From positions 62,001 to 126,000 of the forward strand of contig JAFWEJ010000006.1 in NCBI GenBank assembly GCA_017512985.1: a stretch of DNA of 64,000 nt, in the 5' to 3' direction. Below are positions 42,528-58,354 of this stretch, piece after piece. The translations under genes were made by a program, and so were the position numbers. Each line of letters opens with the position of its first letter. Positions within the stretch are counted from its first letter, which is position 1. The notes below the pieces were generated by a model. It saw nothing but the letters and a program-made list of their open reading frames with translations, was not told the origin of the DNA and did no database searches. The DNA is from Clostridia bacterium (GTDB lineage Bacteria > Bacillota > Clostridia > Christensenellales > Aristaeellaceae).

Positions 42528-42654
42528 CATAGATGTACGTAACAAATGAAAAGGTTTGCATTGATACCAATATATGGCAGGAAGATTCGGATGCAAAAAT
42601 GTAAAAAACGGATAAAAACAAACCAATCAGAATAAAAACTTAACAAAAAAGATG

Positions 42655-42683
42655 TTGACATTGGTTGAATCATGCGATATTAT
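42655..42683 (+). promoter_or_regulatory. Promoter of the LacI-led glycan operon
   Basis: TTGACA (42655-42660), 17 bp, TATTAT (42678-42683), followed by the operator at 42689 and the LacI start at 42733. Confidence 0.8.
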
Positions 42684-42688
42684 GCCAT

Positions 42689-42702
42689 TGCAAACGATTA
42701 CA
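42689..42702 (+). promoter_or_regulatory. LacI/CcpA-type operator (cre-like)
   Basis: TGCAAACGATTACA fits the cre/LacI-family pattern TGNAANCGNWNNCA with the central CG. It overlaps the expected transcription start, so binding would repress. Either the LacI protein encoded 31 bp downstream or CcpA may bind. Confidence 0.65.
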
Positions 42703-42732
42703 ATATTGCGCAACAAGAGGGGAAAAACCACC

Positions 42733-43737
42733 ATGAGGACAGTCCGGCTGAAAGATATTGCAGATGTTTGCGGTGTTTCAACCGCAACGGTTAGCCGCGC
42801 GCTGAACGGACTGACCCAGGAGAACAACAAGGTAACCTCCATGATCCGACAGAAGGCAGCTGAAATGGGATATGTCCCGAACGCAGCGGCGCTGACGCTG
42901 AAAACGAACCGCTCAAACAATATCGGCGTTCTGTATGAAGACCAGATGGATCATGAATACTTCAGCTCGCTCCTTGACGCGCTCCGGCGCGAGGCAAGCC
43001 GGCGGGGATATGACCTTTCCCTGATCGGGGAAGAGGGTGGAAACGGGATCAATTACCTGGAGCATATCCGCAGGCGTAACCTTGACGGTGTAATCGTGAT
43101 CCAGGCGGATTTCGATTCCGCCGAGGTGATCCGCCTGGCAACCAGTTCCATCCCGTCGGTCGTGATCGACCACCTGTATGAAGGATGCAACTGCGTCAGC
43201 AGCGACAACCGGGAAAGCATGAAGCAGATTGTCCGCTGTGCCGTGGAGCACGGGCACAGGCGGATTGCCTATATCACCGGCGAACAGGGAGCTGTCACAA
43301 ACGAGCGCCTTGCCGGGTTCTACAAAACCTGCGCGGAGATGGGCATCCGCGTGCCGGAGGGCTCCGTGAAGGAGGGCCGCTTCCATGAACCGGAAGACTG
43401 CGTCCGCCTGATCCGGGAGCTGATGGCCGGCCCTGTCAGTGCGACGTGCATCCTCTGCCCGGACGACTACAGCTGCCTGGGCGCCCTCTGGCAGCTGAAG
43501 GAAGCAGGAATTGGTGTTCCGGAGCAGGTGAGCCTGATCGGATACGACGGAATCCGGATGGGGCAGATGATTCCCCCGCGGCTGACGACGTACCGGCAGG
43601 ATACCGCCGGGATCGCGGCCGAAGCGCTTACCCTGCTGACGGACACGATTGAGTCGCCGGACTCCCTGCCCGCCAGGCAGATCGCGGTGGCCGGAAAGAT
43701 GATTGAAGGGGAAACAGTCTGCGTACCTTCCCGCTGA
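42733..43737 (+). CDS. LacI family transcriptional regulator
   Basis: Start at ATG 42733 with AGAGGGG upstream. The 334-residue repressor has the LacI helix-turn-helix and hinge (VRLKDIADVCGVSTATVSRALNG ... YVPNAAALTLKTNRSNNIGVLY) and a ligand-binding domain with IPSVVIDHLYEGCNCVSSDNRESM and the end SLIGYDGIRMGQMIPPRLTTYRQD. It begins the glycan operon: the anchored module protein follows after 46 bp without a terminator, and a cre-like operator lies between its promoter and start, so it probably represses the whole operon until a sugar binds. Confidence 0.92.
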   Translation: MRTVRLKDIADVCGVSTATVSRALNGLTQENNKVTSMIRQKAAEMGYVPNAAALTLKTNRSNNIGVLYEDQMDHEYFSSLLDALRREASRRGYDLSLIGEEGGNGINYLEHIRRRNLDGVIVIQADFDSAEVIRLATSSIPSVVIDHLYEGCNCVSSDNRESMKQIVRCAVEHGHRRIAYITGEQGAVTNERLAGFYKTCAEMGIRVPEGSVKEGRFHEPEDCVRLIRELMAGPVSATCILCPDDYSCLGALWQLKEAGIGVPEQVSLIGYDGIRMGQMIPPRLTTYRQDTAGIAAEALTLLTDTIESPDSLPARQIAVAGKMIEGETVCVPSR

Positions 43738-43783
43738 AAGGCGGAAGAGATAAACAGAATCAATTATTTAAGGAGGAGAACCC

Positions 43784-46078
43784 ATGAAGAAGGCACTTAC
43801 CCCCATCCTGGCTGTCGTGGCAGTCATCGCGATCGTTGTTGCGTGCGTTTTCGGCGCGCAGAACGGGAGCAACAAATCCAAACTGGATGAGACGACCGCC
43901 GCGCTGAACGCGGCAAACGACAGCGTCAAGACGCTCGAGGATGAAAAAGCCAAACTGTCCGCCGACCTGGAAGCAGCGAAAGCGGACCTGGAGGCCAAGG
44001 CATCCGAGCTGGAGACCAAAGTATCCGAGCTGACCGCCAAAGCCGGTGAGTTCGACACGGCCAAGGCAGACCTGGAAGCCAAGGTGGCTGAACTGGAGCA
44101 GAAGCTGACAAAAACCGAGCGCGCGCTGACCGCCGCGAAGAGCAACGCCTACATCATGTTCGCCAGCGCGGACTGGTCCGTTTCCAACTGGGGCACCGCC
44201 GACAGCGACGACGACACCGTGAAAGTGACCCCCGCCGCGGTTTCCGGCCCCGGGGACTACACCGTCGGCCTTGAGTTCGCGCAGCCGGTTTCCGGCCTGG
44301 CCTTCACCGCGCTGGGCGTGAAGAACGGCGAGATCGACTTCCCCGGATACTACCTGCGTGTGAACGAGATCCGCATCAACGGCGAAAAGATCAGCTGGCT
44401 GGAAGACAAAATCGGCTACACCTCTTCCGACGACGGAAAAGAGACCCGCGTCAACATCTACAACGAATGGGTTTCCGAACTGCCCGCCGACGCCCGCGTA
44501 TGGAACGGCGACAAGGCCCATGCCGCGCCTGTGTTCGTGGACAAGGCCGCCTTTGACGCGGTGAAGACCTACGAAGTGGATTTCACCGTGTTTGACGGTC
44601 CCACCGATTACGCCTACATCATGTATGCCAACGCTGACTGGACCGCCTCCAACTGGGGCATCACGGACAGCGAGGACGGCAATGTGAAAGTAACGGCTCC
44701 CGAAATCCGGGGCGCCGGGGACTACACCACCAGCATTGAATTCGCGACGCCGGCCGCCGGCCTGGCCTTCACCGCCCTGGGCGTTGTGAACGGCGAAATT
44801 TCCTTCCCCGGCTGGTACCTGACCATCAGGGAAATCCGCGTCAACGGCGAGAAGATCGATTTCCTGGCCGACAAGAAAGGCTACACCTCTTCTGACGAAG
44901 GCATCACCACCCGCGTAAACCTGTACAACGAATGGGTGAGCGAAGTGCCCGGCGACGCCCGAAGCCTGGACGGCGACCTCGCGAACGCTTCCCCGATCGT
45001 TGTGGACAAGGCCGCGTTCGAATCCGTAAGCAAGTTCGAGATCGACTTCAATTACAGCCCGATCTCCGCCTACATCATGTACGCCAACGCCGACTGGTCC
45101 GTCTCCAACTGGGGCTACACCAGCACGGACGCCGTGAAGGTCGCGCCCGCGACCCTGCTGGGCGAAGGCAGCTACACCACCTCCCTTGAGTTTGCCGAAC
45201 CCGCGGAAGGCCTGGCCTTCACCGCCCTGGGCATCAAGAACGGCGAGCAGGTGCTGCCCGGCTGGATCATCCGGATTGACAGCATCAGGCTGAACGACAG
45301 CGAAGAGAACATCCTCAAGGGTATTCCCTACACCTCCTCCGACGATGAGAAGGAAACCCGCTCCAACATCTACAACGAATGGGTCACTGACCTCCCGAAG
45401 GACGCCCGGACCGAATCCGGCAACCTGGACAACGCTTCCCCTGTGGTGGTTGACAAGGCCCTGTTCACCGGCGTCAAAAAGATGACCGTGGACTTCACAC
45501 TGATCAAGGGCAGGGAAGTTGCCGCTGCCGCCGCCGACGAGAACGCGCTGACCCGTGAAAAGTGGGACGAGCTGAAGGCCAACGGCTTCAATGCCTACAT
45601 CGGTGTGCAGAGCACGAGCTACATCTTCCGGAACACCTGGGACGAGGCGAAGTACGGCCGTGATTCCCAGGACAACCCCGAATGCTTCGGACAGCTGACC
45701 GGCTGGGATGCAGACAACAATAAGGTCAACTATGGCGGCACCTTTGCGGACACGAAGGTGACGGACAAGGGTGAATACACCGTGTCCCTGACCACCGGCG
45801 AAATGGGTTTCGGCTCGGACGAGACCTTCCGGATGCTGTTCGTTTCCACGGAGATTCCCTCGGCCGCGATTACCCAGGGTTACACGAAGATCGACAACGT
45901 GCGGGTCAAGATCGGCAATGCCGCAACCCAGACCTATACGGATGTGGATACCTCCGGAGACTACGCGCGGATCATCCTGATCGATGAGTACAACCGCGGC
46001 GAGGCGCCTTTCGGTTATACCGTTCCCGGAGCTGACAGCACCATTACCGTCAACTTCGAAGTGACTGAATGGCAGTAA
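43784..46078 (+). CDS. Membrane-anchored coiled-coil protein with four repeated beta-rich modules
   Basis: A 764-residue surface protein. Residues 7-24 are a single membrane anchor, 33-117 a heptad-rich Ala/Leu/Glu/Lys coiled coil, then three close copies of a module at 122-269, 277-423 and 429-573, and a diverged fourth at about 604-762. Each copy has AYIMxAxxDWxxSNW, G-x-Y-T, AFTALG-x-x-NGE, PG(Y/W), YTSSD and TR-x-N-x-YNEWV. The same module ends the GH5 enzyme encoded downstream, which implies glycan binding. AAGGAGGAG precedes the start; codons are strongly C-ending, suggesting abundance. It may hold substrate near the CUT1 importer. I recognise no named family. Confidence 0.78.
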   Translation: MKKALTPILAVVAVIAIVVACVFGAQNGSNKSKLDETTAALNAANDSVKTLEDEKAKLSADLEAAKADLEAKASELETKVSELTAKAGEFDTAKADLEAKVAELEQKLTKTERALTAAKSNAYIMFASADWSVSNWGTADSDDDTVKVTPAAVSGPGDYTVGLEFAQPVSGLAFTALGVKNGEIDFPGYYLRVNEIRINGEKISWLEDKIGYTSSDDGKETRVNIYNEWVSELPADARVWNGDKAHAAPVFVDKAAFDAVKTYEVDFTVFDGPTDYAYIMYANADWTASNWGITDSEDGNVKVTAPEIRGAGDYTTSIEFATPAAGLAFTALGVVNGEISFPGWYLTIREIRVNGEKIDFLADKKGYTSSDEGITTRVNLYNEWVSEVPGDARSLDGDLANASPIVVDKAAFESVSKFEIDFNYSPISAYIMYANADWSVSNWGYTSTDAVKVAPATLLGEGSYTTSLEFAEPAEGLAFTALGIKNGEQVLPGWIIRIDSIRLNDSEENILKGIPYTSSDDEKETRSNIYNEWVTDLPKDARTESGNLDNASPVVVDKALFTGVKKMTVDFTLIKGREVAAAAADENALTREKWDELKANGFNAYIGVQSTSYIFRNTWDEAKYGRDSQDNPECFGQLTGWDADNNKVNYGGTFADTKVTDKGEYTVSLTTGEMGFGSDETFRMLFVSTEIPSAAITQGYTKIDNVRVKIGNAATQTYTDVDTSGDYARIILIDEYNRGEAPFGYTVPGADSTITVNFEVTEWQ

Positions 46079-46089
46079 TTTTCCTCCTT

Positions 46090-46124
46090 CGGCGGCGCCG
46101 ATCCCGGACCGGCGCCGCCCCTTT
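46090..46124 (+). terminator. GC-rich hairpin between the module protein and the permease gene
   Basis: CGGCGGCGCCG-side arm (46091-46100) pairs with CGGCGCCGCC (46110-46119), followed by CCTTTAT. As an intra-operon element it probably terminates partly or protects the upstream mRNA, giving more module protein than permease. Confidence 0.6.
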
Positions 46125-46148
46125 ATCTGACTGAAATGAGGCAGACCT

Positions 46149-47675
46149 ATGACTGAAAAAAGCACCCGGAAACGCCTGGCTCCGGCCGACCAGACCGGGC
46201 CGGAACGCGTGTCCCTCTGGTGCCTGCGCACCACCGCGATCCTGGTGTTGCTGATGATTTTCTTCCCGCCGTTCAATCCGGGAAGGATCTCCACGCAGAT
46301 CAGCGGCAACCTGACCCTGCTGACGTCCGCCACCTCTTTTTCCACGGTGACGACCAAGCTCAGCGCCTATATGACCAGCGGCAACCGGTTTGCCCTGCGC
46401 GCTTCCGACATGGCTCAGTCCATGGCGGGCTGCGCCATGATCCTGGCCGGTGCGGTGCTGGCCGGCGCCGGCGCCTGTGTCAGCCTCGGCAACCGGAAGA
46501 TGCGCCGCATCGCGGTGTTCTTTCCGCTGGCGGGCGGCGCCCTGATCCTGGGCGGTCTGGGAGTGAACCGCGCGGCGTACCGGCAGATTGCTGATTTTGT
46601 GAACAGTATGGACCTGCCTGCTTCCCATATTGAGGAACACCTGCGGAACCTGTCCCTGCAGTGGCCGGAATTCGCGAACACGGCCTGGGCTGCCGGCGGT
46701 GTGCTGCTGCTGGCGGGCGGACTGGCTGCCGCCGTGTTTGCCTGGAAGAAGAAATGCCCGGAAGCGCGGCCCGAGATGGAAGAGAAATACAAGCTCTTCA
46801 TCATGTTCCTGCCGGTACTGATCCTGTCCTTTGTGTTTGCCTACCTGCCTATTTACGGATGGCGGTACGCGTTTTATGACGCGAAGGCCGGGGACGAACT
46901 GACAAAGGAAATCTTTGTCGGGTTCAGCAACTTCTCCATGCTGATCAACGATCCGGGCTTCTCCGCGAAAATCCTGCAGGTGCTGCGCAACACCCTGATC
47001 ATGAGCGGCCTGGGCATTGCCACAAGCTGGCTGCCCATCGCGTTCGCGATCCTGCTGGCAGAGATCAGGTCCTCGAAATTCCAGCGCACGGTTCAGACGC
47101 TGACCACCATTCCCAACTTCCTGAGCTGGGTGCTGGTCTATGCCGTCGCGCTTTCTATCTTTGCCGCGGACGGCTTGGTCAATAACCTGACCAGCCTGAT
47201 CAGCGGGGTCGGGTTTACCCGAGTGGACTACCTGGCCAGCGCGGACGCGACCTGGATCAAGATGCTGCTGTGGGGTACCTGGAAGGGCCTGGGCTGGAGC
47301 GCCATCATCTATGTGGCCGGCATTGCGGGCATCGACCAGCAGCTCTATGAGGCGGCCCGGGTGGACGGGGCAAACCGCTTCCGCTGCATCTGGCACATTA
47401 CCGTGCCGGGCCTGATGCCAACCTATATGGTCATGCTGCTTATGAGCGTAGCCGGTATCCTGAGCAACGGAATGGAACAATACCTGGTTTTCTCCAATCC
47501 GTACAACGGGGATTTTATCCAGGTGCTTGACCTGTATGTCTATAACCTGGGCATCGGAAACAGCCAGCTTTCGGTGTCCACGGTGATCGGTATTCTCAAG
47601 TCGGTCATCGCGGTGATCCTGCTCTTTGGCGCGAACGGCATCTCCAAGGCCGTGCGCGGCGAGAGCATCATATAA
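46149..47675 (+). CDS. CUT1 ABC sugar permease (LplB-like) with N-terminal membrane extension
   Basis: Residues about 212-508 are a complete LplB/YtcP-type permease: KLFIMFLPVLILSFVFAYLPIYGWRYAF, NTLIMSGLGIATSWLPIAFAILLAEI, the EAA loop EAARVDGANRFRCIWHITVPGL and the end FGANGISKAVRGES. Residues 1-210 are extra and contain about four membrane helices (28-40, 93-112, 118-139, 180-199) with an extracytoplasmic stretch in between; ordinary LplB proteins are about 300 residues. It pairs with the next gene. Role: uptake of oligosaccharides bound by the LplA-like protein, using a shared ATPase encoded elsewhere. Confidence 0.87.
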   Translation: MTEKSTRKRLAPADQTGPERVSLWCLRTTAILVLLMIFFPPFNPGRISTQISGNLTLLTSATSFSTVTTKLSAYMTSGNRFALRASDMAQSMAGCAMILAGAVLAGAGACVSLGNRKMRRIAVFFPLAGGALILGGLGVNRAAYRQIADFVNSMDLPASHIEEHLRNLSLQWPEFANTAWAAGGVLLLAGGLAAAVFAWKKKCPEARPEMEEKYKLFIMFLPVLILSFVFAYLPIYGWRYAFYDAKAGDELTKEIFVGFSNFSMLINDPGFSAKILQVLRNTLIMSGLGIATSWLPIAFAILLAEIRSSKFQRTVQTLTTIPNFLSWVLVYAVALSIFAADGLVNNLTSLISGVGFTRVDYLASADATWIKMLLWGTWKGLGWSAIIYVAGIAGIDQQLYEAARVDGANRFRCIWHITVPGLMPTYMVMLLMSVAGILSNGMEQYLVFSNPYNGDFIQVLDLYVYNLGIGNSQLSVSTVIGILKSVIAVILLFGANGISKAVRGESII

Positions 47676-47687
47676 GGGGGTGCGCCT

Positions 47688-49541
47688 GTGGAAGAGAGAA
47701 AAGGATTCCTGTCCAAGCGCATCCGCCTGAAGCTGTGGCAGAAGCTGCTGCTGATCGCGGGCTGCACCGCGCTGTGCGCCCTGCTTGCCTTGGTTTACTG
47801 TGAAAAGATCGCGGCGCCTGTTTATTCCAGTACCGTCCGGACCCAGCTGCGGATTGCGGATACGGATTCGTTGACCGCCTCCGGGGATCCTTCCCTGACG
47901 GTGGAGGCGCTGGATATTCCGGCCGGACTTCGGGACGAGCTGGCGGCGGTCGGCAGCAAGAACAAGGGGCTGTTCTACCGGAACATCACCGACGAGATCC
48001 AGCAGGCTACGGGTGAACTGATCAAGCCCAAGGACCTGAAAAACATGATCAGCGTCTCGGCGGATGAGACGGATGAAAGCCGCCGCACCGTGCTGATCAC
48101 CGTCAAAAACAGCGACACGGACAAGGCTGCCCTGATCAGCGCGGCGGCCGCGAACCAGTTCGGAACGCTGGTGTTCGGCGCGCCCGCGCAGCCAGACCAG
48201 GCGGAGATCACGGACGAGGCGCGGGACGGGAACGTCCGCACGGTCACCTTCCGGGTCACGGAGACAGCCGCCGCACTCCTGCCGGAGAAATTCCTGGGCA
48301 GGACGCTGGACCTGGTGACGCCGGTCCGGAACCTGCTGGCGGACGACGTGTTCTGCGCGAAGATTGCGGAGCGGGCAGGCGTCCGGGCGTCCGGCAGCGA
48401 GGTGCGCAAGTCTGTGGGCATGGCCACAACCGCGGATCCGTTCGTCATGACGCTGACGGCGGTGTGGAAGGATGAGGAAGAAGCCCGGAAGCTGGCCACC
48501 GCCGAGGGTGAACAGATTGCGGCCGAACTTTTCGGCGGCAGCTTCGAACCCTGGCAGGCGGAGGTGGATGAACCGACCGCTGTCAGCGAGAACGTGAAGA
48601 CCTGGCCGAATACGGCACTGATCACTGCGTTCGTTGCACTGGCCGCTTTGGCCGTCAGTTTCGCCCTGTTTTCCCAACAGCCGCTGTTTGACACCTGCGT
48701 CGTGATCTTCTTTGTCCTGTTCACATTCATCTGCGTGTTCCCGTTCTATTACCTGTTTATCAACACGATTTCAGACAACAACCTGGTCGCCGGCGGCCAG
48801 ATCAACTTCCTGCCGCAGGGTATCCATTTCAAAAACTATGAACGGATCCTGGGGCAGGAGGAACTGAAGGACGCGCTGATCGTGACGGTCAGCCGCACGG
48901 TCCTGGGCACGGCGCTGATGGTGCTGACATCCGCCTGGGCGGGTTACCTGGTCACCAAGCGCAAGATGTGGCACCGGAGCTTCTGGTACCGGGCATTGGT
49001 CGTGACCATGTATTTCAACGCCGGCCTGATTCCCTGGTACACCAATATGCTGATGCTGGGACTGACCGGGAATTTCCTGGCCTATATTATCCCGGGCATG
49101 GTGGCGCCTTACAACATCATCCTGGTCAAGACCTATATCGAGTCCATTCCCGGATCGCTGGAGGAAAGCGCGATCATTGACGGCGCGTCCACCTTCAAGG
49201 TCTTCCTGAAGATCATCCTGCCGCTGTCGATCCCGATCCTGGCGACCATCTCGATCTTTGGCGCCGTGGGAAACTGGAATTCCTTCCAGGATTCGCTGCT
49301 GCTGATGAGCTCCACCCCAAAGCTTTATACCCTGCAGCACCGGCTGTATATCTACCTGAACCAGACCACCAGCATCAATACCGAGCAGATTTCCGAGCAG
49401 ATGGCCCAGAACCTGCTGAACAACGGGGTCACGACGAAGTACACAATCGCCATGATCACAATTATCCCGATCCTGCTGGTATATCCTTTCATGCAGCGGT
49501 ACTTCGTCAAAGGGATCATGTTAGGAGCAGTTAAAGGATAA
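47688..49541 (+). CDS. CUT1 ABC sugar permease (LplC-like) fused to an N-terminal Wzz-like domain
   Basis: A 617-residue protein starting at GTG (47688) after AAGGGGG. Residues 19-37 are a membrane helix, 38-305 an extracytoplasmic region, 308-328 a second helix; this helix-loop-helix plan, with YSSTVRTQLRIAD and two segments like ISVSADETDESRRTVLITV, resembles Wzz/YveK chain-length proteins. Residues 332-617 are a full LplC permease with the EAA loop EESAIIDGASTFKVFLKIILPLS (492-514) and the end QRYFVKGIMLGAVKG. No frame break separates the parts. The N-terminal part could contact glycan or the anchored module protein. The fusion is new to me. Confidence 0.8.
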   Translation: MEERKGFLSKRIRLKLWQKLLLIAGCTALCALLALVYCEKIAAPVYSSTVRTQLRIADTDSLTASGDPSLTVEALDIPAGLRDELAAVGSKNKGLFYRNITDEIQQATGELIKPKDLKNMISVSADETDESRRTVLITVKNSDTDKAALISAAAANQFGTLVFGAPAQPDQAEITDEARDGNVRTVTFRVTETAAALLPEKFLGRTLDLVTPVRNLLADDVFCAKIAERAGVRASGSEVRKSVGMATTADPFVMTLTAVWKDEEEARKLATAEGEQIAAELFGGSFEPWQAEVDEPTAVSENVKTWPNTALITAFVALAALAVSFALFSQQPLFDTCVVIFFVLFTFICVFPFYYLFINTISDNNLVAGGQINFLPQGIHFKNYERILGQEELKDALIVTVSRTVLGTALMVLTSAWAGYLVTKRKMWHRSFWYRALVVTMYFNAGLIPWYTNMLMLGLTGNFLAYIIPGMVAPYNIILVKTYIESIPGSLEESAIIDGASTFKVFLKIILPLSIPILATISIFGAVGNWNSFQDSLLLMSSTPKLYTLQHRLYIYLNQTTSINTEQISEQMAQNLLNNGVTTKYTIAMITIIPILLVYPFMQRYFVKGIMLGAVKG

Positions 49542-49575: not shown

Positions 49576-51318
49576 ATGAAGAAACTGATCGCGATGATGA
49601 TGTGCCTGGTTATGCTGCTGGCAGCGATGCCGGGCCTGGCGGAAGAAGCGGCGGCGGAACCGGAAGAAGGCATCATCCGGCTGGACGTTTACAGCCAGCT
49701 TGCCAACTTCTCCGGTATCCAGCAAGGCTGGGGCGCTACGCTGCTGAAGGACAAGTTCGGTGTGGAGATCAACATCATCCCGGAACAGGACGGCACCTAC
49801 GCCACCCGGATGGAGGCAGGCAATCTGGGCGATATCGTCGTCTGGGGAGCCAACGGCGACGACTACAAAAACGCGGTTGCCAAGGGCATGCTGCTGGACT
49901 GGGAACAGTTTGACCTGGGGAAGACCTATGCGCCATATATCATGGAGCATTATACCGACGCACTGGAGAGCAACCGGAAGATCAGCGGCGATGACAAGAT
50001 CCACGGCTTCGGTTTCAATGTCGCTTTCAGCGCGGATAGCCACCAGTCTTTCTTCTATACCTGGGACGTGCGCTGGGACCTGTATAAGGAACTGGGTTAT
50101 CCGGAAGTGAATTCCCTGGACGACCTGCTGGACCTGTTTGTACAGATGAAGGAGATCTGTCCGAAGGACGAGGTCGGCAATGAGACTTACGCCCTGAGTT
50201 CCTGGCCGGACTGGGACGTGAACATGGTCATGTATGTGAAGGCACTGGGAACGGCTTTCTACGGCTATGACGAGCTGGGTTTCGGACATTACAACCCGGA
50301 GAACGGCGAGTTCCTGTCCTGCCTGGACGACGACGGCGTCTATATGGAATGCCTGCGGTTCTTCAACAAGCTCTACCGCGCAGGCCTGCTGGATCCCAAC
50401 TCCTCCAGCAACACCTACGACAAGATGAGTGAAAAGCTTAAAAACGCCGGCACATTCTGGTCCATTTTCAACTATGCGGGATCCATGGCCTTCAATACCG
50501 ACAAGCACCTGTCCGAGGGTAAATATATGTATACCCTGGTACCGGGGGACGCGACGCCCATAGTATACGGCCTGGGTTCCACCGGCGGTATCCGGGTCTG
50601 GTCCATCGGCAATTACACCAAGTATCCGGAAAAGTGCCTGGAGATCCTGGACTGGCTGGCCTCCCCGGAAGGCTCCATGACCGCCTGGTACGGACCGAAG
50701 GGCCTGACCTGGGACTATGACGAGAACAAGGGGATGTATTTCACGGAGCTGGGGAAGCAGACCTCCGCGGACAGCACCTTCAATATGGCGGGCATCGAGT
50801 GGACGTCCCCCTATACCGGGAAGACCTATACCCTCAGCGGTACCTATAACGACGGCAGCATCCAGATCAACAACACTACCCTGTGCAAGGACATGATCAA
50901 CCCGGACGGCAACGGACTCGAGACCTTCAACAAGGATACATGGGCATCCGTGGCAACAGCGGTAACATACCCGATCCAGGAGGACTGGCGGGAGAAAAAC
51001 AACGCAGTGCTGGCGGACGACTATATGGAGAACCGTGTGGATGAATACGGCGACCAGAAATATGTCGTGATGCCGGACATCCCGTATTCCGCGACGCCCC
51101 AGTCCTCTGAACTGGCACTGAAGTGGAAGAACTGCGCCAAAACAATCCGGGATTATTCCTGGCGGGCGATTTACGCCAAGGCGGACGCGGAATTTGATTT
51201 CCACGTCAGAGAGATGAAAAAACTCTGTGACCAGTACGGTTACGCGGAGTGCGTGGAATGGTGCAAAGGGGAGGCTGCCCAGATGTGGGAGCTGACGCAG
51301 CAGCTGAAGGGTGAATAA
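49576..51318 (+). CDS. Extracellular solute-binding protein (LplA-like, SBP family 1)
   Basis: A 580-residue sugar-binding protein with a signal peptide (MKKLIAMMMCLVMLLAAMPG; the processing site may be at GLAEE). No lipobox in the best position, though the cysteine at residue 9 lies within the hydrophobic core. Family pattern: GATLLKDKFGVEINIIPEQDGTYATRMEAGNLGDIVVWGAN, then GGIRVWSIGNYTKYPEKCLEILDWLASPEG. The length fits the LplA/YtcQ group that works with LplB/LplC permeases. A terminator follows within 60 bp and the GH5 gene is next, so its ligand is probably a beta-glucan oligosaccharide. Confidence 0.9.
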   Translation: MKKLIAMMMCLVMLLAAMPGLAEEAAAEPEEGIIRLDVYSQLANFSGIQQGWGATLLKDKFGVEINIIPEQDGTYATRMEAGNLGDIVVWGANGDDYKNAVAKGMLLDWEQFDLGKTYAPYIMEHYTDALESNRKISGDDKIHGFGFNVAFSADSHQSFFYTWDVRWDLYKELGYPEVNSLDDLLDLFVQMKEICPKDEVGNETYALSSWPDWDVNMVMYVKALGTAFYGYDELGFGHYNPENGEFLSCLDDDGVYMECLRFFNKLYRAGLLDPNSSSNTYDKMSEKLKNAGTFWSIFNYAGSMAFNTDKHLSEGKYMYTLVPGDATPIVYGLGSTGGIRVWSIGNYTKYPEKCLEILDWLASPEGSMTAWYGPKGLTWDYDENKGMYFTELGKQTSADSTFNMAGIEWTSPYTGKTYTLSGTYNDGSIQINNTTLCKDMINPDGNGLETFNKDTWASVATAVTYPIQEDWREKNNAVLADDYMENRVDEYGDQKYVVMPDIPYSATPQSSELALKWKNCAKTIRDYSWRAIYAKADAEFDFHVREMKKLCDQYGYAECVEWCKGEAAQMWELTQQLKGE

Positions 51319-51340
51319 GCGAATCACTGAATATCAGGAA

Positions 51341-51377
51341 ACGGCGTGTCCCGGGTTTGCCGGAGCACGCCGTTTTT
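51341..51377 (+). terminator. Intrinsic terminator between the binding protein and GH5 genes
   Basis: ACGGCGTG (51341-51348) and CACGCCGT (51366-51373) followed by TTTTT. It ends 15 bp before the GH5 start, so GH5 would need read-through or another promoter. Confidence 0.72.
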
Positions 51378-51391
51378 CAGAAGGAGAAGCA

Positions 51392-53164
51392 ATGAAAAGA
51401 ATCATCATGATCATGCTGGTGCTGCTGGCCGCGGCGCTGTGCGGTGCCGCGTCGGCCGAGGAAGCGCCGGCGGACGCCCTGGAGATGAGCCGGCGTATGG
51501 GGAACGGCATCAACCTGGGCAATACCATGGAAGCCTGCAATAACGGCAAACTGGGCGGCAATACGACGGACAATCCGAAGTTTTATGAAACCTTCTGGGG
51601 CCAGCCGGTGACTACACCGGAGATGCTGCGGGCTATGAAGGACTGCGGTTTTGACACAATCCGGATCCCGGTCGCCTGGATGACCAACGCGACGCACCTG
51701 GACAAGGGGGATTTTACGATCTCCGAAGCGTACATGGAACGGGTGGAAGAGATCGTGAATTACGCATTGGACGCCGGCATGATCGTGATCATCAACGACC
51801 ACTGGGACGGCGGATGGTGGGGCATGTTCGGATCGGACACCGAGGCGACCCGGAACCTGGCCATGGAAGCCTATACCGGCATGTGGAAGCAGCTGGCGGA
51901 ACGGTTCGGCAAGTATGGCTGGCAGCTGGTTTTTGAGAGCGCCAACGAGGAGCTCGGCACCGGGTTTGACGAAAACAGCCCGCTTTATTGCGACGATTCG
52001 CTTGCGCACACGATGCCGGAGAGTGAGCGCTATGCCCTGGCCAACCGGATCAACCAGGTGTTTGTGGACACCGTGCGGGCGTCCGGCGGGAACAACGCGG
52101 ACCGGTTCCTGCTGATTGCGGGATACAGAACGGATATCAGCAAAACCTGCGATATGCGCTTCGAAATGCCGAAGGATCCCGCGGCAGGCAGGCTCCTGGT
52201 CTCCGTGCACTATTACAGTCCCTGGAGCTACTGCGGGGCAAGTACTGCGAAGAGTGCGACCCTGTGGGGAAAGCAGGCTGATTATGAGGCGATGTATGCC
52301 GACCTGGGCCGGCTGAAACGGTTTACCGCCGCCGGATACGGCGTGGTAATCGGCGAATACGGCGCGCTGCCCGGCAGCGACGGCGTGATGAAAAAGAATG
52401 CGCCGGCCTATCACGAAGCCTTCCTGAACTGCTGCGACGCGCTGGACCTGGGAAACTGCCTGTGGGACTGCAGCGGATTCTTTGTCCGGAAACAGCTGAT
52501 AATCGTTGAAGAAGAGATGGCGGCAGTCTATGCGGGACGGAACGCGGCTTCCGAATCGGGCCGTGATTACGCGGAGATCGCGGCAGCCGGGAAGGCTGCC
52601 CTGGACGCGATGACCGCCGCGGCGCCGGAATCCCTGGTGGAAAACGCGCTGAACGCGGACGCGGACAGCTGCGTTGCCTGGATCATGTTCAGCGGCGGGG
52701 ACTGGACGATGAGCTACAGCGTGGGCGATGTCTATACACCGGATTCCATGACGCCCGGGATCGTGCCGACCGACGCGGAGATCACCGGCGCCGGGACCTA
52801 TACCGTGGCGCTGGACTTTACCGGCACCGAAACGGGATACGCGTCCAACACGGCTTTCAGCGCGATCGGGATCTCCAACGGGGAACAGAAATATCCGGGC
52901 TACTGTATTTTCTTCACGGAAGTGATCATCAACGGGGAACCCGTGAGGCTGAAGGGCCGGAATTACACCTGCTCGGACGACGGAAAGTGCACAAGGAGCA
53001 ACCTGTATAACGAATGGGTGGATATAAAAACCGCCCGCAGCGGGGCACGGGTGCTGGTCGGCGACCTGACCGGGATCTCGGCAACAATCCTGGACCGCGG
53101 CCTGGAAGCCATGCAGAAGATCCGCACCATTGAGATTACCTTCCGGTATGAGCCCAGGAAATAA
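51392..53164 (+). CDS. Secreted GH5 endoglucanase with C-terminal shared module
   Basis: Start at ATG 51392 (AAGGAGAAG upstream), followed by a signal peptide to about residue 22. The 590-residue protein has a GH5 catalytic domain in about 30-400: MGNGINLGNTMEACN, IRIPVAWM, NDHWDGGWWG, the acid/base E186 in FESANEEL and the nucleophile E322 in VVIGEYGALPG. Residues 426-587 are one copy of the module found four times in the anchored protein encoded at 43784. It should cut cellulose or another beta-glucan outside the cell, with products taken up by the CUT1 system. Confidence 0.88.
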   Translation: MKRIIMIMLVLLAAALCGAASAEEAPADALEMSRRMGNGINLGNTMEACNNGKLGGNTTDNPKFYETFWGQPVTTPEMLRAMKDCGFDTIRIPVAWMTNATHLDKGDFTISEAYMERVEEIVNYALDAGMIVIINDHWDGGWWGMFGSDTEATRNLAMEAYTGMWKQLAERFGKYGWQLVFESANEELGTGFDENSPLYCDDSLAHTMPESERYALANRINQVFVDTVRASGGNNADRFLLIAGYRTDISKTCDMRFEMPKDPAAGRLLVSVHYYSPWSYCGASTAKSATLWGKQADYEAMYADLGRLKRFTAAGYGVVIGEYGALPGSDGVMKKNAPAYHEAFLNCCDALDLGNCLWDCSGFFVRKQLIIVEEEMAAVYAGRNAASESGRDYAEIAAAGKAALDAMTAAAPESLVENALNADADSCVAWIMFSGGDWTMSYSVGDVYTPDSMTPGIVPTDAEITGAGTYTVALDFTGTETGYASNTAFSAIGISNGEQKYPGYCIFFTEVIINGEPVRLKGRNYTCSDDGKCTRSNLYNEWVDIKTARSGARVLVGDLTGISATILDRGLEAMQKIRTIEITFRYEPRK

Positions 53165-53286
53165 CTGATCCGGCTGCCGGGATACGGACCTGTAAGCACT
53201 TGCGCCGGAAGCTTTTGTCGGTTATGATACGTTATATGGAAGAAGGGAAAAAACATTCGGGACATAACCGCAGGGAGGCGTGATTC

Positions 53287-54354: not shown

Positions 54355-55491
54355 TCAGGTTCCGGTCAGGTCGCTCCAGGCGGAGACAAGGCTTTCAATA
54401 ATGTTCAGATGCTGGGGGCAGGCAGCCTCACACGCGGCGCAGGACACGCAGTTGTCCGCGCCGTTGTTTTTCTCCAGGATCATGCGGAACATCCAGTCTT
54501 CCTTTGGGTCGGTGCCGTAGAGGGACCAGTTGTTCCAGGCGGAGAAGATGCCGGGAATGTTCACGCCGTTGGGACAGGGCATGCAGTAACGGCAGCCGGT
54601 GCAGCCGATCTTTGTGCGGCTGATATAGGCTTCGCGCACTTCGTCGATGAGCTTCAGTTCTTCTTCGCTCATGATGCCCGTGTCCACGGTATCGAAGATG
54701 CGCAGGTTCTCGTCAATCTGCTCCGCTTCGTTGCAGCCGGAGAGCACCACGGAGACCTCCGGATGGTTGCACAGCCAGCGGAACGCCCATTCCACCGCGG
54801 AGCGTTTCACCGGGAAGGCGTCATAGAGCGCCTGCACATTGTCCGGCGCGTTGGCCAGGCGTCCGCCGAGCAGGCCTTCCATGATCACGACCGGAATCCC
54901 CCTGCTGCCGGCCAGCTCCAGGCCCTTCGTGCCGGCCTGGTTGCCGATGTCCATAAAGTTGTACTGGATCTGGCACATATCCCAGTCCCAGTCGTTGAGG
55001 ATATATTCGAACTCTTCATACGGGCCGTGGAAGGAGAAACACTTGTAACGGATCTTTCCCTCCCGTTTCATGTCGTCAAAGAATTCCGGGGCGCCGATGG
55101 CCTTCATATGCTCCCACTTCTGCTTGTTCATGGCGTGCATGAGATAAAAGTCAATATGGTCTGTCTGCAGCTTTTTCAGTTCTTCGGCGAGGATTTTTTC
55201 CATGTCTGCGCGGCTGTTGACCATATCCGGCGGCACCTTGGTGGCGATGGTCACCTTCTCCCGGTAACCGTCCAGCAGTGCCTTGCCGAGCACGATTTCG
55301 GAGGTTTTGTCCAGATAGATGTAGGCGGTATCGATATAGGTGACGCCGCCGTCAATGGCCCGGCGGATCAGGGAGACGGCTTTCTGCTCGTCAATGACGC
55401 TGTCCCCGGAAGCGGCGCCGTTAAAGCGCATGCAGCCCAGGCCGAAAGCGGAAGCGCAGACGCCGAGTTTGCCCATGGTGCGGTATTTCAT
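54355..55491 (-). CDS. Aldo/keto reductase with C-terminal 4Fe-4S-type cysteine motifs
   Basis: A 378-residue protein: an aldo/keto reductase barrel in about 1-285 (MKYRTMGKLGVCASAFGLGCMRFNG, DGGVTYIDTAYIYLDKTSE, DHIDFYLMHAMNK, GIPVVIMEGLLGGRL) followed by a ferredoxin-like tail with CTGCRYCMPCPNGVNIPGIF and CVSCAACEAACPQHLNI, which can hold two Fe-S clusters. This architecture is common in anaerobic Clostridia and probably couples reduced ferredoxin or NAD(P)H to carbonyl reduction. RBS GGAGGATCTGT. Substrate unknown. Confidence 0.87.
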   Translation of the reverse strand: MKYRTMGKLGVCASAFGLGCMRFNGAASGDSVIDEQKAVSLIRRAIDGGVTYIDTAYIYLDKTSEIVLGKALLDGYREKVTIATKVPPDMVNSRADMEKILAEELKKLQTDHIDFYLMHAMNKQKWEHMKAIGAPEFFDDMKREGKIRYKCFSFHGPYEEFEYILNDWDWDMCQIQYNFMDIGNQAGTKGLELAGSRGIPVVIMEGLLGGRLANAPDNVQALYDAFPVKRSAVEWAFRWLCNHPEVSVVLSGCNEAEQIDENLRIFDTVDTGIMSEEELKLIDEVREAYISRTKIGCTGCRYCMPCPNGVNIPGIFSAWNNWSLYGTDPKEDWMFRMILEKNNGADNCVSCAACEAACPQHLNIIESLVSAWSDLTGT

Positions 55492-55600
55492 ACAGATCCT
55501 CCTTCATGCGGCGGCAGGCCGGATATGTGTTTTCCTGTTTCTGAAAAGAATGTACTCCTTAGAGTTTACTCTAAGTCAACCGGAAAAAGAAAATGCCGGA

Positions 55601-58198
55601 TTATTCCGGCATGAATTCGATGACGCCGTCGTTCTCCGCCGGTGTCACGGCGTCTTCCGTACAGGTGGAGAGGATCGCGTCCGCGGTGCGGTTGTAGAGG
55701 GAAAGCAGCTGGGCGTGTTCCTGCTGGATTGGTTCCGGGTCGTCCCGGCGGGCGGCGTGCTCCAGGCGCGCGGCCATCTCCGACAGACGCGCGGCGCCAA
55801 TGGTACCGGAGGTGCTTTTGAGGGCGTGGACGACAATGGCGTAGTTCTTCCAGTCGGCCGACGCGTAATACAGCTGCAGGCGCTCCGATTTTTCAGCGGC
55901 GGCGCTGCCGTATTCCCACAGGACGGAGCGGTACAGCGCTTCATCGTTCTGGCAGAAGGCCAACCCCTGCGCGACGTCGATCTCCGCGGCGCGGAGTGTC
56001 GGGAACAGGTTTTCCGCGGCAGGGGAGGCTCCTTCCTCCGCGGGTGCCTCCACGGGAATCACCTTCTCCGGCGGCAGGCAGGCCATCAGGATCCGGATCA
56101 GCGACTGGCTGTCGATCGGCTTGGCCAGGTAGTCCGTGAAGCCCTCGGCAAGATAGCGCTCCCGCGCACCGGCGATCGCGTCGGCGGTCAGGCAGATGAC
56201 CGGCGTCTGCCGGTTGCGGCCGTCCTCCTGCTCCCGGATCAGGTGCATGGCCTCGGTGCCGTCCATCTCCTGCATGCGCTGGTCCATGAGGATCAGGTCA
56301 TAGGGGACAGACTGCGTCAGGCGCAGCGCTTCCGCGCCGGAAAGGGCGGTGTCGGCCCGGATCTGCGTGTCTTTGATCAGTCCTTCCGCCACGGTCAGAT
56401 TCATGCGGGTGTCGTCCACGATGAGGATATGCGCGTCCGGCGCATGGAAGAACAACCCGGAGGGTTTCCCGTTTTCCGCGCTGGCCTCAAACCGCTCACG
56501 GAAATCGCCGATCGGTTCGGCGGAAACAGCCTTTTGCGGAATGGTGACCGAGAAGACGGATTCTTCGCCGTAGGTGCTGTCCACATCGATGGTGCCGCCC
56601 ATCATGTCCAGCAGGCTCTTCACGATGGCCAGGCCCAGGCCGGTGCCTTCCACATTTTCGAACTCCGCCGGGCGGATCCGTTCAAACTTTTCAAAAAGCC
56701 GGTCCAGGTCCTCCTTCCGGATGCCGATGCCCGTATCCCGGACGGAGAAGGCCAGGCGGAAGGTTCCGTCGTCTTTGGTTTCACCGGAAACGGACAGGGA
56801 AACCTCACCCCGGACGGTGTATTTGACGGCGTTGTTCAGGATGTTGAGCATGATCTGGCGGATCCGGATCTCATCCCCGTACAGGCGGTCCGGCACCTGT
56901 TCGTCCACGTCCACCAGGAAGGACAGGTTCCGGGACTGGGCCCGGAAACGGATCAGGTTGCAGACGTCGTTCAGCACGGAGCTCAGGCGGTATTCGCCTT
57001 CCCGGATCTCCAGCTTGCCCGCCTCGATCCGGGAGATGTCGAGAATGTCGCTGATGATGGCCAGCAGGTTCCGGCCGGCGGTGTTGATGATTCCGGCATA
57101 GCCGCTGATATCGGAGAAGACCCCGCGGACTTTTTCACTGTCATCCGGCAGGCGGTCCCGGGCCTGCATGCTCTCCCGCAGGATGATCTCGTTCATGCCC
57201 ATGACCGCGTTGATCGGCGTGCGGATTTCGTGGCTGATGTTCGCCAGGAATTCGCTCTTGGCGGCATTGGACTGCTCCGCGATGCGCCTTGCCTCGCGCA
57301 GGGCATTGTTCTCGGACGCTTTCTGGCCGAAATAGACGATGAAGACAATCGCGATGGTGAAGATGACCAGGATCAGGGAGATCACAAAGAGCATCACCGG
57401 GATCACGTCGTAGACGCTGGAGGCCGCGGCGGGATCGACGTTTTCCGTCATGATGTTCCGCATCCAGACGCCGAGCATCATGCCGCCGACGGAGCCCGGC
57501 AGCAGGATGCCGAGATAGGACAGCTTCAGGATACGCTGGTATTTCCGGTCAAAGGTGGTGGAGGCGGGCAGCTGCTGTTCCGAGTAGGAACGGCGGATCG
57601 CCCAGGCGAGGAACAGGTAATCGATGCTGTTGAGGATGGAGAAGAAATAATACAGATTAAACCAGGGCTCATACAGGCAGGAGAAGGTCCACATGCCGAA
57701 CTCGGTTGTGATGAAGACCAGGATGGCGAGGCAGCCGTACGGCATTGCCGTGCCCTTTTCCCGGTTTTTGCAGTACCAGAGGATGCCCTGCAGGCTGAAG
57801 CAGGCGATCAGCGTGCCGATCAGGACCTGGTAGATGTTGTTCAGCAGGTCGCCGTAGGGCAGGTAAAGGATCAGCTGCAGGACGTTCAGCGGGAGCGGGA
57901 GCAGCATCAGGGGATGGAAGAAGGACCGTTCCTCCGGGGTTTTCATATGCATGAGCAGCAGGAACAGGACCAGGAAGGAGGCGTTCCATCCGGAATAGGT
58001 CAGCCAGTCAAGACTCCTGGGCGAGTCTCCCATGATGACCAGGTAGGTGGTCCAGTAGTAGCTGCTCAGCAGGCTGCACAGGAAGAAAACGATGGCGTAG
58101 AACCAGCCCCTGCGCTTGTTGGAGATATAGTAAAACAGGCACAGCAAAAGCGCGATGAGGTTCGCCGACAACTGAACGATATTCTCCGCGTATTCCAC
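55601..58198 (-). CDS. Hybrid sensor histidine kinase with receiver and HPt domains
   Basis: An 865-residue membrane sensor. Residues 1-295 contain about eight hydrophobic helices in a 7TM-like N-terminal sensor; HisKA has the phosphoacceptor H323 in ISHEIRTP; HATPase_c shows NILNNAVKYT, DTGIGI and GTGLGLAIVKSL; a receiver domain (590-710) has the acceptor D639 in LILMDQ; an HPt domain ends the protein with H791 in VVHALKSTSGTIGA. The start is GTG (58196-58198) with AAGGAG ten bases upstream. It runs an internal phosphorelay; its output partner is not adjacent. Confidence 0.9.
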   Translation of the reverse strand: MEYAENIVQLSANLIALLLCLFYYISNKRRGWFYAIVFFLCSLLSSYYWTTYLVIMGDSPRSLDWLTYSGWNASFLVLFLLLMHMKTPEERSFFHPLMLLPLPLNVLQLILYLPYGDLLNNIYQVLIGTLIACFSLQGILWYCKNREKGTAMPYGCLAILVFITTEFGMWTFSCLYEPWFNLYYFFSILNSIDYLFLAWAIRRSYSEQQLPASTTFDRKYQRILKLSYLGILLPGSVGGMMLGVWMRNIMTENVDPAAASSVYDVIPVMLFVISLILVIFTIAIVFIVYFGQKASENNALREARRIAEQSNAAKSEFLANISHEIRTPINAVMGMNEIILRESMQARDRLPDDSEKVRGVFSDISGYAGIINTAGRNLLAIISDILDISRIEAGKLEIREGEYRLSSVLNDVCNLIRFRAQSRNLSFLVDVDEQVPDRLYGDEIRIRQIMLNILNNAVKYTVRGEVSLSVSGETKDDGTFRLAFSVRDTGIGIRKEDLDRLFEKFERIRPAEFENVEGTGLGLAIVKSLLDMMGGTIDVDSTYGEESVFSVTIPQKAVSAEPIGDFRERFEASAENGKPSGLFFHAPDAHILIVDDTRMNLTVAEGLIKDTQIRADTALSGAEALRLTQSVPYDLILMDQRMQEMDGTEAMHLIREQEDGRNRQTPVICLTADAIAGARERYLAEGFTDYLAKPIDSQSLIRILMACLPPEKVIPVEAPAEEGASPAAENLFPTLRAAEIDVAQGLAFCQNDEALYRSVLWEYGSAAAEKSERLQLYYASADWKNYAIVVHALKSTSGTIGAARLSEMAARLEHAARRDDPEPIQQEHAQLLSLYNRTADAILSTCTEDAVTPAENDGVIEFMPE

Positions 58199-58354
58199 CT
58201 GTCCGGATCTCCTTATATGTAATTGAATCTGATATCATTATACGCGGGACAGGGAGAAAACACAATGAGCGGATGAAGGAATTATTCCTTCTCAAACCGT
58301 TTTTCCGGGCGTATAATGATCGCAGTGAAAACACAGCGGAGGAGCAGGGAAAAG

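Follow-up and report, generated by a model that had tools for sequence, protein, structure and literature searches.

A module shared by a tandem-module protein and a GH5 enzyme in a Clostridia operon, with a probable role in beta-glucan binding

Gene content of the locus

We analysed 64,000 nucleotides of DNA from a Clostridia bacterium (contig JAFWEJ010000006.1); this whole stretch is referred to here as the window, and positions are those of the window. The locus holds a LacI-family regulator, a protein built of tandem modules, two ABC permeases, a solute-binding protein, and a GH5 enzyme, with the following features.

42652..43737, +, LacI-family regulator that opens the operon (Pfam LacI 1.7e-9, Peripla_BP_3 1.2e-25)
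43784..46078, +, tandem-module surface protein, 764 amino acids (open reading frame; 76 of 79 named loci encode a module protein)
43784..43858, +, N-terminal membrane anchor, residues 1-25 (sequence and comparison of relatives)
43874..44140, +, coiled-coil-like stalk, residues 31-119 (L/I/V/M periodicity, composition)
44141..44596, +, type-A module 1 (A1), residues 120-271 (profile and alignment)
44606..45061, +, type-A module 2 (A2), residues 275-426 (profile and alignment)
45062..45508, +, type-A module 3 (A3), residues 427-575 (profile and alignment)
45590..46075, +, type-B module, residues 603-764 (profile and alignment; profile-profile comparison with type A)
46091..46119, +, GC-rich predicted hairpin between the module gene and permease 1 (gap MFE -28.6)
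46149..47675, +, ABC permease 1 with approximately 200 extra N-terminal residues (BPD_transp_1 3.7e-15, best stretch residues 298-498)
47688..49541, +, ABC permease 2 with an N-terminal extension (BPD_transp_1 1.5e-8, Wzz 1.2e-5)
49576..51318, +, extracellular solute-binding protein (SBP_bac_1 1.6e-9)
51338..51376, +, predicted hairpin between the solute-binding gene and the GH5 gene (gap MFE -33.4)
51392..53164, +, secreted GH5 endoglucanase that ends in a type-A module (Pfam Cellulase 2.9e-41, PDB matches, motifs)
52667..53158, +, type-A module carried by the GH5 enzyme (own-genome search, alignment, tree clade)

As stated in the original prediction, the tandem gene is the first after LacI: the regulator at 42652..43737 precedes the open reading frame at 43784, whose ATG start is preceded by AAGGAGGAG. 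The opposite strand of the tandem gene also holds a long open reading frame (43760-46357), and we uphold the + strand protein at 43784-46078 because of its homologues. The open reading frame listed for the GH5 enzyme opens at 51311, and its start was placed at 51392 on the basis of the signal peptide.

Both permeases carry additional N-terminal sequence. The extension of permease 1 (residues 1-200) contains several hydrophobic segments ahead of the permease domain, and that of permease 2 (residues 1-330) gave a Wzz match of 26.0 bits with a cut-off of 25.5. The permease 2 extension is missing in many relatives, whose permease 2 is approximately 318 amino acids long. The solute-binding protein (49576-51318) is without a lipobox although the cell seems monoderm; by pattern, 8 of 67 relatives have one, with L048 and L069 doubtful and several true N termini out of view. 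Further downstream, open reading frames 54409 and 55340 (54409-58222) have no Pfam match and a C bias of 0.44, much below their neighbours, and are possibly of other origin.

Tandem modules and family searches

Three obvious repeats and a diverged fourth had been predicted in this protein, and they are real. The type-A modules, approximately 150 amino acids long, are 56-64% identical to one another (pairwise blastp identities of 64, 57, and 56% with E values of 1.5e-71, 1.1e-58, and 1.4e-54, far above chance), and a linker of 27 residues lies between A3 and the type-B module. Pairwise blastp comparisons of type B were nonsignificant with A1-A3 (E 0.6-1.5) and weak with the GH5 module (E 0.003). 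Profile-profile comparison related type B to type A over 84 columns (E 4.4e-6, probability 86.7%), and on account of this relation the label of a diverged fourth repeat is fair at the family level. The description of four copies holds for the number of modules, but their composition is three type A and one type B; similarly, the interval given for the module (44147..46069) holds the tandem copies but misses the type-A copy at 52667-53158.

Aromatic residues (F, W, and Y) comprise 9-13% of the modules. Among 103 module rows, W12, F55, and W110 are almost invariant and many aromatic and polar residues are conserved, the conservation of the NEWV columns being partly a product of the search pattern (RxN[LI][YF]NEWV). 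These aromatics may be core residues.

We found no significant Pfam, NCBIfam, or PDB sequence match for type A or type B. No family rose above its cut-off when 36 single type-A members were searched against Pfam and NCBIfam or when 10 single type-B members were searched against Pfam, and no bridging family emerged when ten divergent relatives were searched against Pfam. The top sub-cut-off Pfam match of type A was Shr-like_HID, a heme-protein domain (E 0.0076 among the 36 members; best in L108, E 0.00072), which was set aside since it spans a stretch of approximately 35 residues and remains below the cut-off (20.4 of 22.3 bits). With this as the nearest match, the profile search of the modules against Pfam gave no confident non-carbohydrate domain. 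For type B, the top sub-cut-off Pfam match was Invasin_D3 (E 0.031, 4 of 10 members), and its PDB matches, among them a pyruvate dehydrogenase component at E 0.038, were not significant. Pfam and NCBIfam matches of the whole tandem protein were discarded as well; they are located in the stalk region. Type-A profiles searched against PDB sequences gave 0 matches at E<=10 in one search and two unrelated ones (E 0.13 and 0.77) in another.

Neither these Pfam and PDB searches nor the CBM65 comparison given below related the modules significantly to a known carbohydrate-binding module. Structures of CBM78, CBM79, and CBM80 are present in the PDB, and type-A profiles did not match these in the PDB sequence search. 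PMC4954948 names 12 mutated residues in a novel CBM from R. albus Ra1831; their spacing was reproduced without gaps at 5 of 12 positions at most in the open reading frames, and this CBM was rejected to the extent that an ungapped comparison allows. We recognised no description of the module or of the tandem protein in the open literature, which was covered mostly at the level of titles and abstracts.

A type-A module on the GH5 enzyme

A search of the organism's own genome returned a second module site, located C-terminally in the GH5 enzyme (window 52652-53170), which is encoded by the fourth gene downstream. This module is 37-39% identical to A1-A3. The GH5 domain contains the NE and EYG motifs, which mark the catalytic residues, and it matched 55 distinct PDB sequences at E<=0.001, led by a xyloglucanase (2jep, 1.4e-47) and a beta-1,3-1,4-glucanase (4x0v, 6.1e-45). 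We infer that the enzyme belongs to subfamily GH5_4. In the CAZy sense, a carbohydrate-binding module is a discrete module joined to a carbohydrate-active enzyme, and type A occurs in this way at the GH5 C terminus, both in the window and among the named loci described below (30 of 79). Genomes of another family (L114 and L193-L196) also have a GH5 with module A.

In a quick tree of 120 modules, many inner branches of which are weak, all 21 GH5 module copies fell into one clade (SH-aLRT 98). Labels changed 30 times on this tree, compared to a mean of 75.3 for shuffled labels, and positions 1-3 cluster. Given the GH5 clade and the label clustering in this quick tree, fusion to GH5 looks like a single event and the positions seem to have partly retained their identity. 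These data also bear on whether the modules could be structural spacers that bind no ligand. Surface proteins commonly display tandem repeats on a stalk, and the failure to match known binding families is compatible with such a role, but a lone C-terminal copy on a GH5 enzyme spaces nothing, and neither the numerous conserved aromatic and polar residues nor the separate clade of GH5 copies and the clustering of positions 1-3 above shuffled labels would be expected of spacers. We consider this explanation very unlikely.

Two known accessory modules of rumen GH5 enzymes offer a comparison. CBM65 is described in the available passages of PMC4954948 and PMC10992016 as an accessory module of GH5 enzymes from rumen Firmicutes that binds xyloglucan and beta-glucan. 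The type-A module is also accessory to GH5, but we found no sequence relation to CBM65: PF18259 (CBM65) was not among the matches of the 36 type-A members, and hhalign against a profile of 20 PF18259 members (probability 0.2, E 0.28) gave no relation of CBM65 to types A or B. According to the passages available from PMC4725902, CBM72 is C-terminal on rumen GH5 endoglucanases, binds beta-glycans broadly, and has six conserved aromatics (F372, W380, Y411, Y418, W423, and F462). The type-A copy is also C-terminal on a GH5 endoglucanase, a likeness of position in which sequences had no part; compared by the described spacing only, without gaps and across 1935 open reading frames, the best among the matches listed reproduced 4 of the 6 aromatics.

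Distribution of the module and conservation of the operon

A module match was present in 13 of 41 related genomes, the organism's own being one of the 41. Within the genus of the window (25 genomes), the tandem protein was found in 10 and the GH5 copy only in two (G015 and G022), and G019 has a weak match in a different protein. None of 16 genomes from other families of the order had a module match. An even draw from the phylum gave a match in 2 of 398 genomes (own included), and 27 of 197 genomes drawn from the family to which the second of these belongs had one. A pattern scan of named genomes, in which 242 of 246 stretches were confirmed, yielded 79 loci (the named loci), mostly from Clostridia MAGs, many titled rumen or gut; L105 is titled Anaerolineaceae.

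Module proteins without GH5 comprise 80 open reading frames in 76 of the 79 named loci, with the module order AAAB in 54 and AAB in 13. The module gene is split over frames in L089 and L092, and the fetched stretches of L109, L111, and L112 contain only a GH5 enzyme with module A and no tandem protein. In many loci the gene order is collinear (LacI, module protein, permease 1, permease 2, solute-binding protein, GH5), and a LacI match lies upstream of the module gene in many relatives. In 73 of the 76 loci, a same-strand permease 1 gene lies downstream; L035, L058, and L064 stop at a contig edge. A GH5 gene intervenes between the module gene and permease 1 in L102 and L108 and lies upstream in L106. 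GH5-like neighbours without module A were seen in L061, L078, L102, L106, and L108, where all 5 tested are Pfam Cellulase, and similar neighbours without module A are present in L072, L081, L082, and L088.

We asked whether the type-A module might be a docking module for a protein partner, so that the tandem protein would scaffold the GH5 enzyme at the importer; the solute-binding protein, the permease extension, and another A module are the candidate partners. A module common to a scaffold-like protein and an enzyme is somewhat reminiscent of cohesin and dockerin. Moreover, the extended permease 1 tracks the tandem protein within the genus: matches that include the extension were found in 9 of 25 genomes, all within the 10 with the tandem protein, and G009 has the tandem protein with no such match. 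Against docking, in another family the type-A module is carried by lipoprotein-like proteins with a single module as well as by GH5 enzymes, and nine fetched regions from that family (L187-L189 and L191-L196) have the module alone with no match to the window's permeases. In addition, similar operons hold GH5 enzymes without the module, and neither cohesin nor dockerin was among the Pfam matches shown. Docking to a protein is, in our judgement, improbable.

The coupling of these genes is not strict. In L032 (G015) a GH5 gene with module A directly follows LacI, with the tandem protein and importer absent between them, which counts against strict coupling of tandem protein, importer, and GH5. 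GH5 enzymes with module A but no tandem protein (L109, L111, L112, and G015) and the nine regions with the module alone also speak against the tether reading proposed below. By eye, a third kind of module (type C) replaces type B near the C terminus in L102, L104, L105, L106, and L108.

Codon bias and predicted hairpins

Strongly C-biased codons had been reported for the tandem gene, and our measurement agrees: C/(C+T) at two-fold sites is 0.87, and 16 other genes of the window gave 0.44-0.78. We also found that predicted hairpins recur at two points of the operon. We compared the 70 bases past each stop with 40 mononucleotide shuffles each; 56 of 73 loci had z at or below -3 after the module gene, as did 25 of 41 after the solute-binding gene. 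The same threshold was reached after permease 1 in 1 of 71 loci, where the 70 bases are mostly coding, after permease 2 in 7 of 67, and after LacI in 1 of 39. Nine printed examples differ in sequence, and eight of these fold into a strong hairpin, L105 being the one without. Together, the recurrent hairpin and the strong codon bias suggest high expression, in support of the predicted abundance of the protein. In E. coli, a similar arrangement follows malE, and the binding protein outnumbers the permeases.

Anchor, stalk, and surface placement

Residues 5-24 of the tandem protein are strongly hydrophobic. Since a lipobox-like VVAC site is present at Cys21, a lipid anchor is as possible as a membrane helix. 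Of the 10 stalked rows shown, 7 have a cysteine at this position (two being the same gene), and L066, L083, and L096 have none there. Residues 31-118 have a heptad-like L/I/V/M periodicity of 3.5 residues that was equalled by 0 of 300 shuffles, and A, E, K, L, D, and Q comprise 66% of residues 1-119.

We next considered whether this architecture is general, using simple hydrophobicity rules on the window's module protein and 80 others, taken from the named loci; 11 of these 81 rows lack a usable N terminus, leaving 70. At least 70 residues precede the first module in 12 of the 70 rows, with L049 and L063 among those that have a cleavable-looking signal first. A rule-based hydrophobic region C-terminal to the last module was found in 12 of the 70, including L102, which by eye has no C-terminal helix, and a sortase-like motif in 5. 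In 46 of the 70 rows, including L089 and L092, which are fragments, and L064, which is cut, there is a signal peptide only; having no visible anchor, these proteins may therefore be released. The predicted anchor and stalk are thus present in the window protein, in the form of hydrophobic residues 5-24 and a periodic stalk, but are not general among its relatives.

No Omp85 match was found in the organism's own genome (89.7% complete), with control matches in 7 of 14, and a diderm envelope was rejected on this basis. An absence of lipoproteins was ruled out as a reason for the anchor by Lgt matches in 25 of 25 genomes; the lipobox-like site in two of the organism's own solute-binding loci (L157 and L161) also counts against it.

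The large share of rows without a visible anchor would suit modules that bind glycan mainly as a plant-fibre adhesin or a secreted capturer, with the importer merely co-regulated, and codon bias and hairpin both indicate an abundant protein. Yet the presence of permease 1 behind the module gene in 73 of 76 loci, together with its co-occurrence with the tandem protein within the genus, exceeds what adhesion would need, and we find this alternative unlikely.

A surface tether for beta-glucan

We think it likely that the tandem-module protein is a surface glycan-binding tether of a Gram-positive beta-glucan locus and that its modules form an undescribed carbohydrate-binding family. A carbohydrate-binding role is favoured because the module is shared by tether and enzyme, is linked to an importer, is rich in aromatic residues, and is likely placed at the surface. 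The original prediction of a cell-surface grab for polysaccharide remains the best reading, given the module shared with GH5, the importer in 73 of 76 loci, the lack of an Omp85 match, and other anchors in some relatives (a C-terminal helix or a sortase-like motif), but the N-terminal anchor on which it leaned is not general.

As a tether, the protein would act as follows. The three type-A modules, and probably type B too, would bind beta-1,4-linked glucan, most likely xyloglucan or mixed-linkage beta-glucan, a putative specificity for which the GH5 relatives are the sole source. The membrane anchor and stalk would lift the modules through the wall, and polysaccharide would be held at the surface of the cell. 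Via its own type-A module, the secreted GH5 enzyme would settle on the same chains and cut them, and the resulting oligosaccharides would be handed over to the solute-binding protein and the two permeases for import. The hairpin after the tandem gene may permit an excess of tether over permeases. A bolder version would make types A, B, and C a new carbohydrate-binding superfamily and the tandem protein an importer subunit that works with the permease 1 extension, with a SusD-like grip and overproduction by way of the hairpin; this is possible, and we advance it only tentatively.

The retention of fibre before import appears less worked out for Gram-positive gut and rumen bacteria than for the Sus system. 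A module that is common to tether and enzyme and that has no significant Pfam, NCBIfam, or PDB sequence match would name a component that is now without a family, in a type of operon that recurs in rumen and gut Clostridia.

SusD and other surface glycan-binding proteins of Bacteroidota are non-catalytic and are encoded beside a polysaccharide importer. The likeness here is that the gene for a non-catalytic, predicted surface protein adjoins the importer genes of a polysaccharide locus; the differences are an ABC importer, no Omp85 match in the genome, and no SusD match. The SusD family was not among the best 25 of 35 Pfam families for the tandem protein, nor among the matches shown for single type-A or type-B members. 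In the cellulosome, a repeated module on the surface scaffoldin (cohesin) is paired with a related module on the enzyme (dockerin), whereas here one module type is found on both surface protein and enzyme. Cohesin and dockerin were not among the Pfam families shown for ten window proteins (for the tandem protein, the best 25 of 35). The predicted comparison to SusD and cohesin systems is one of role only.

Within Firmicutes, Sas20 of the Ruminococcus bromii amylosome is described in the available passages of PMC9112005 as having two different starch-binding domains and as being assembled in amylosomes. Both Sas20 and the tandem protein would be multi-domain glycan-binding proteins on the surface of a gut Firmicute, binding being predicted here, and the tandem protein differs in that it repeats a single module and its gene adjoins those of an ABC importer and a GH5 enzyme. 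A regulator, an ABC transporter, and a polysaccharide-degrading enzyme in one locus are common to this operon and to Gram-positive polysaccharide utilization loci (gpPUL) as outlined in the passages seen of PMC5320581, the gpPUL components in the window being GH5, two ABC permeases, the solute-binding protein, and LacI. Those passages name no non-catalytic tandem-module protein, which here is encoded by the first structural gene.

Two further arrangements were seen among the relatives. In L187 (G456), a single-module lipoprotein-like protein is encoded near a solute-binding-like protein and a GH5 enzyme, and this GH5 has a Cbm74 match along with CBM65_1 and dockerin matches below cut-off. G024 has two tandem-module proteins on separate contigs (L021 and L022), and the full operon was seen beside L022 only.
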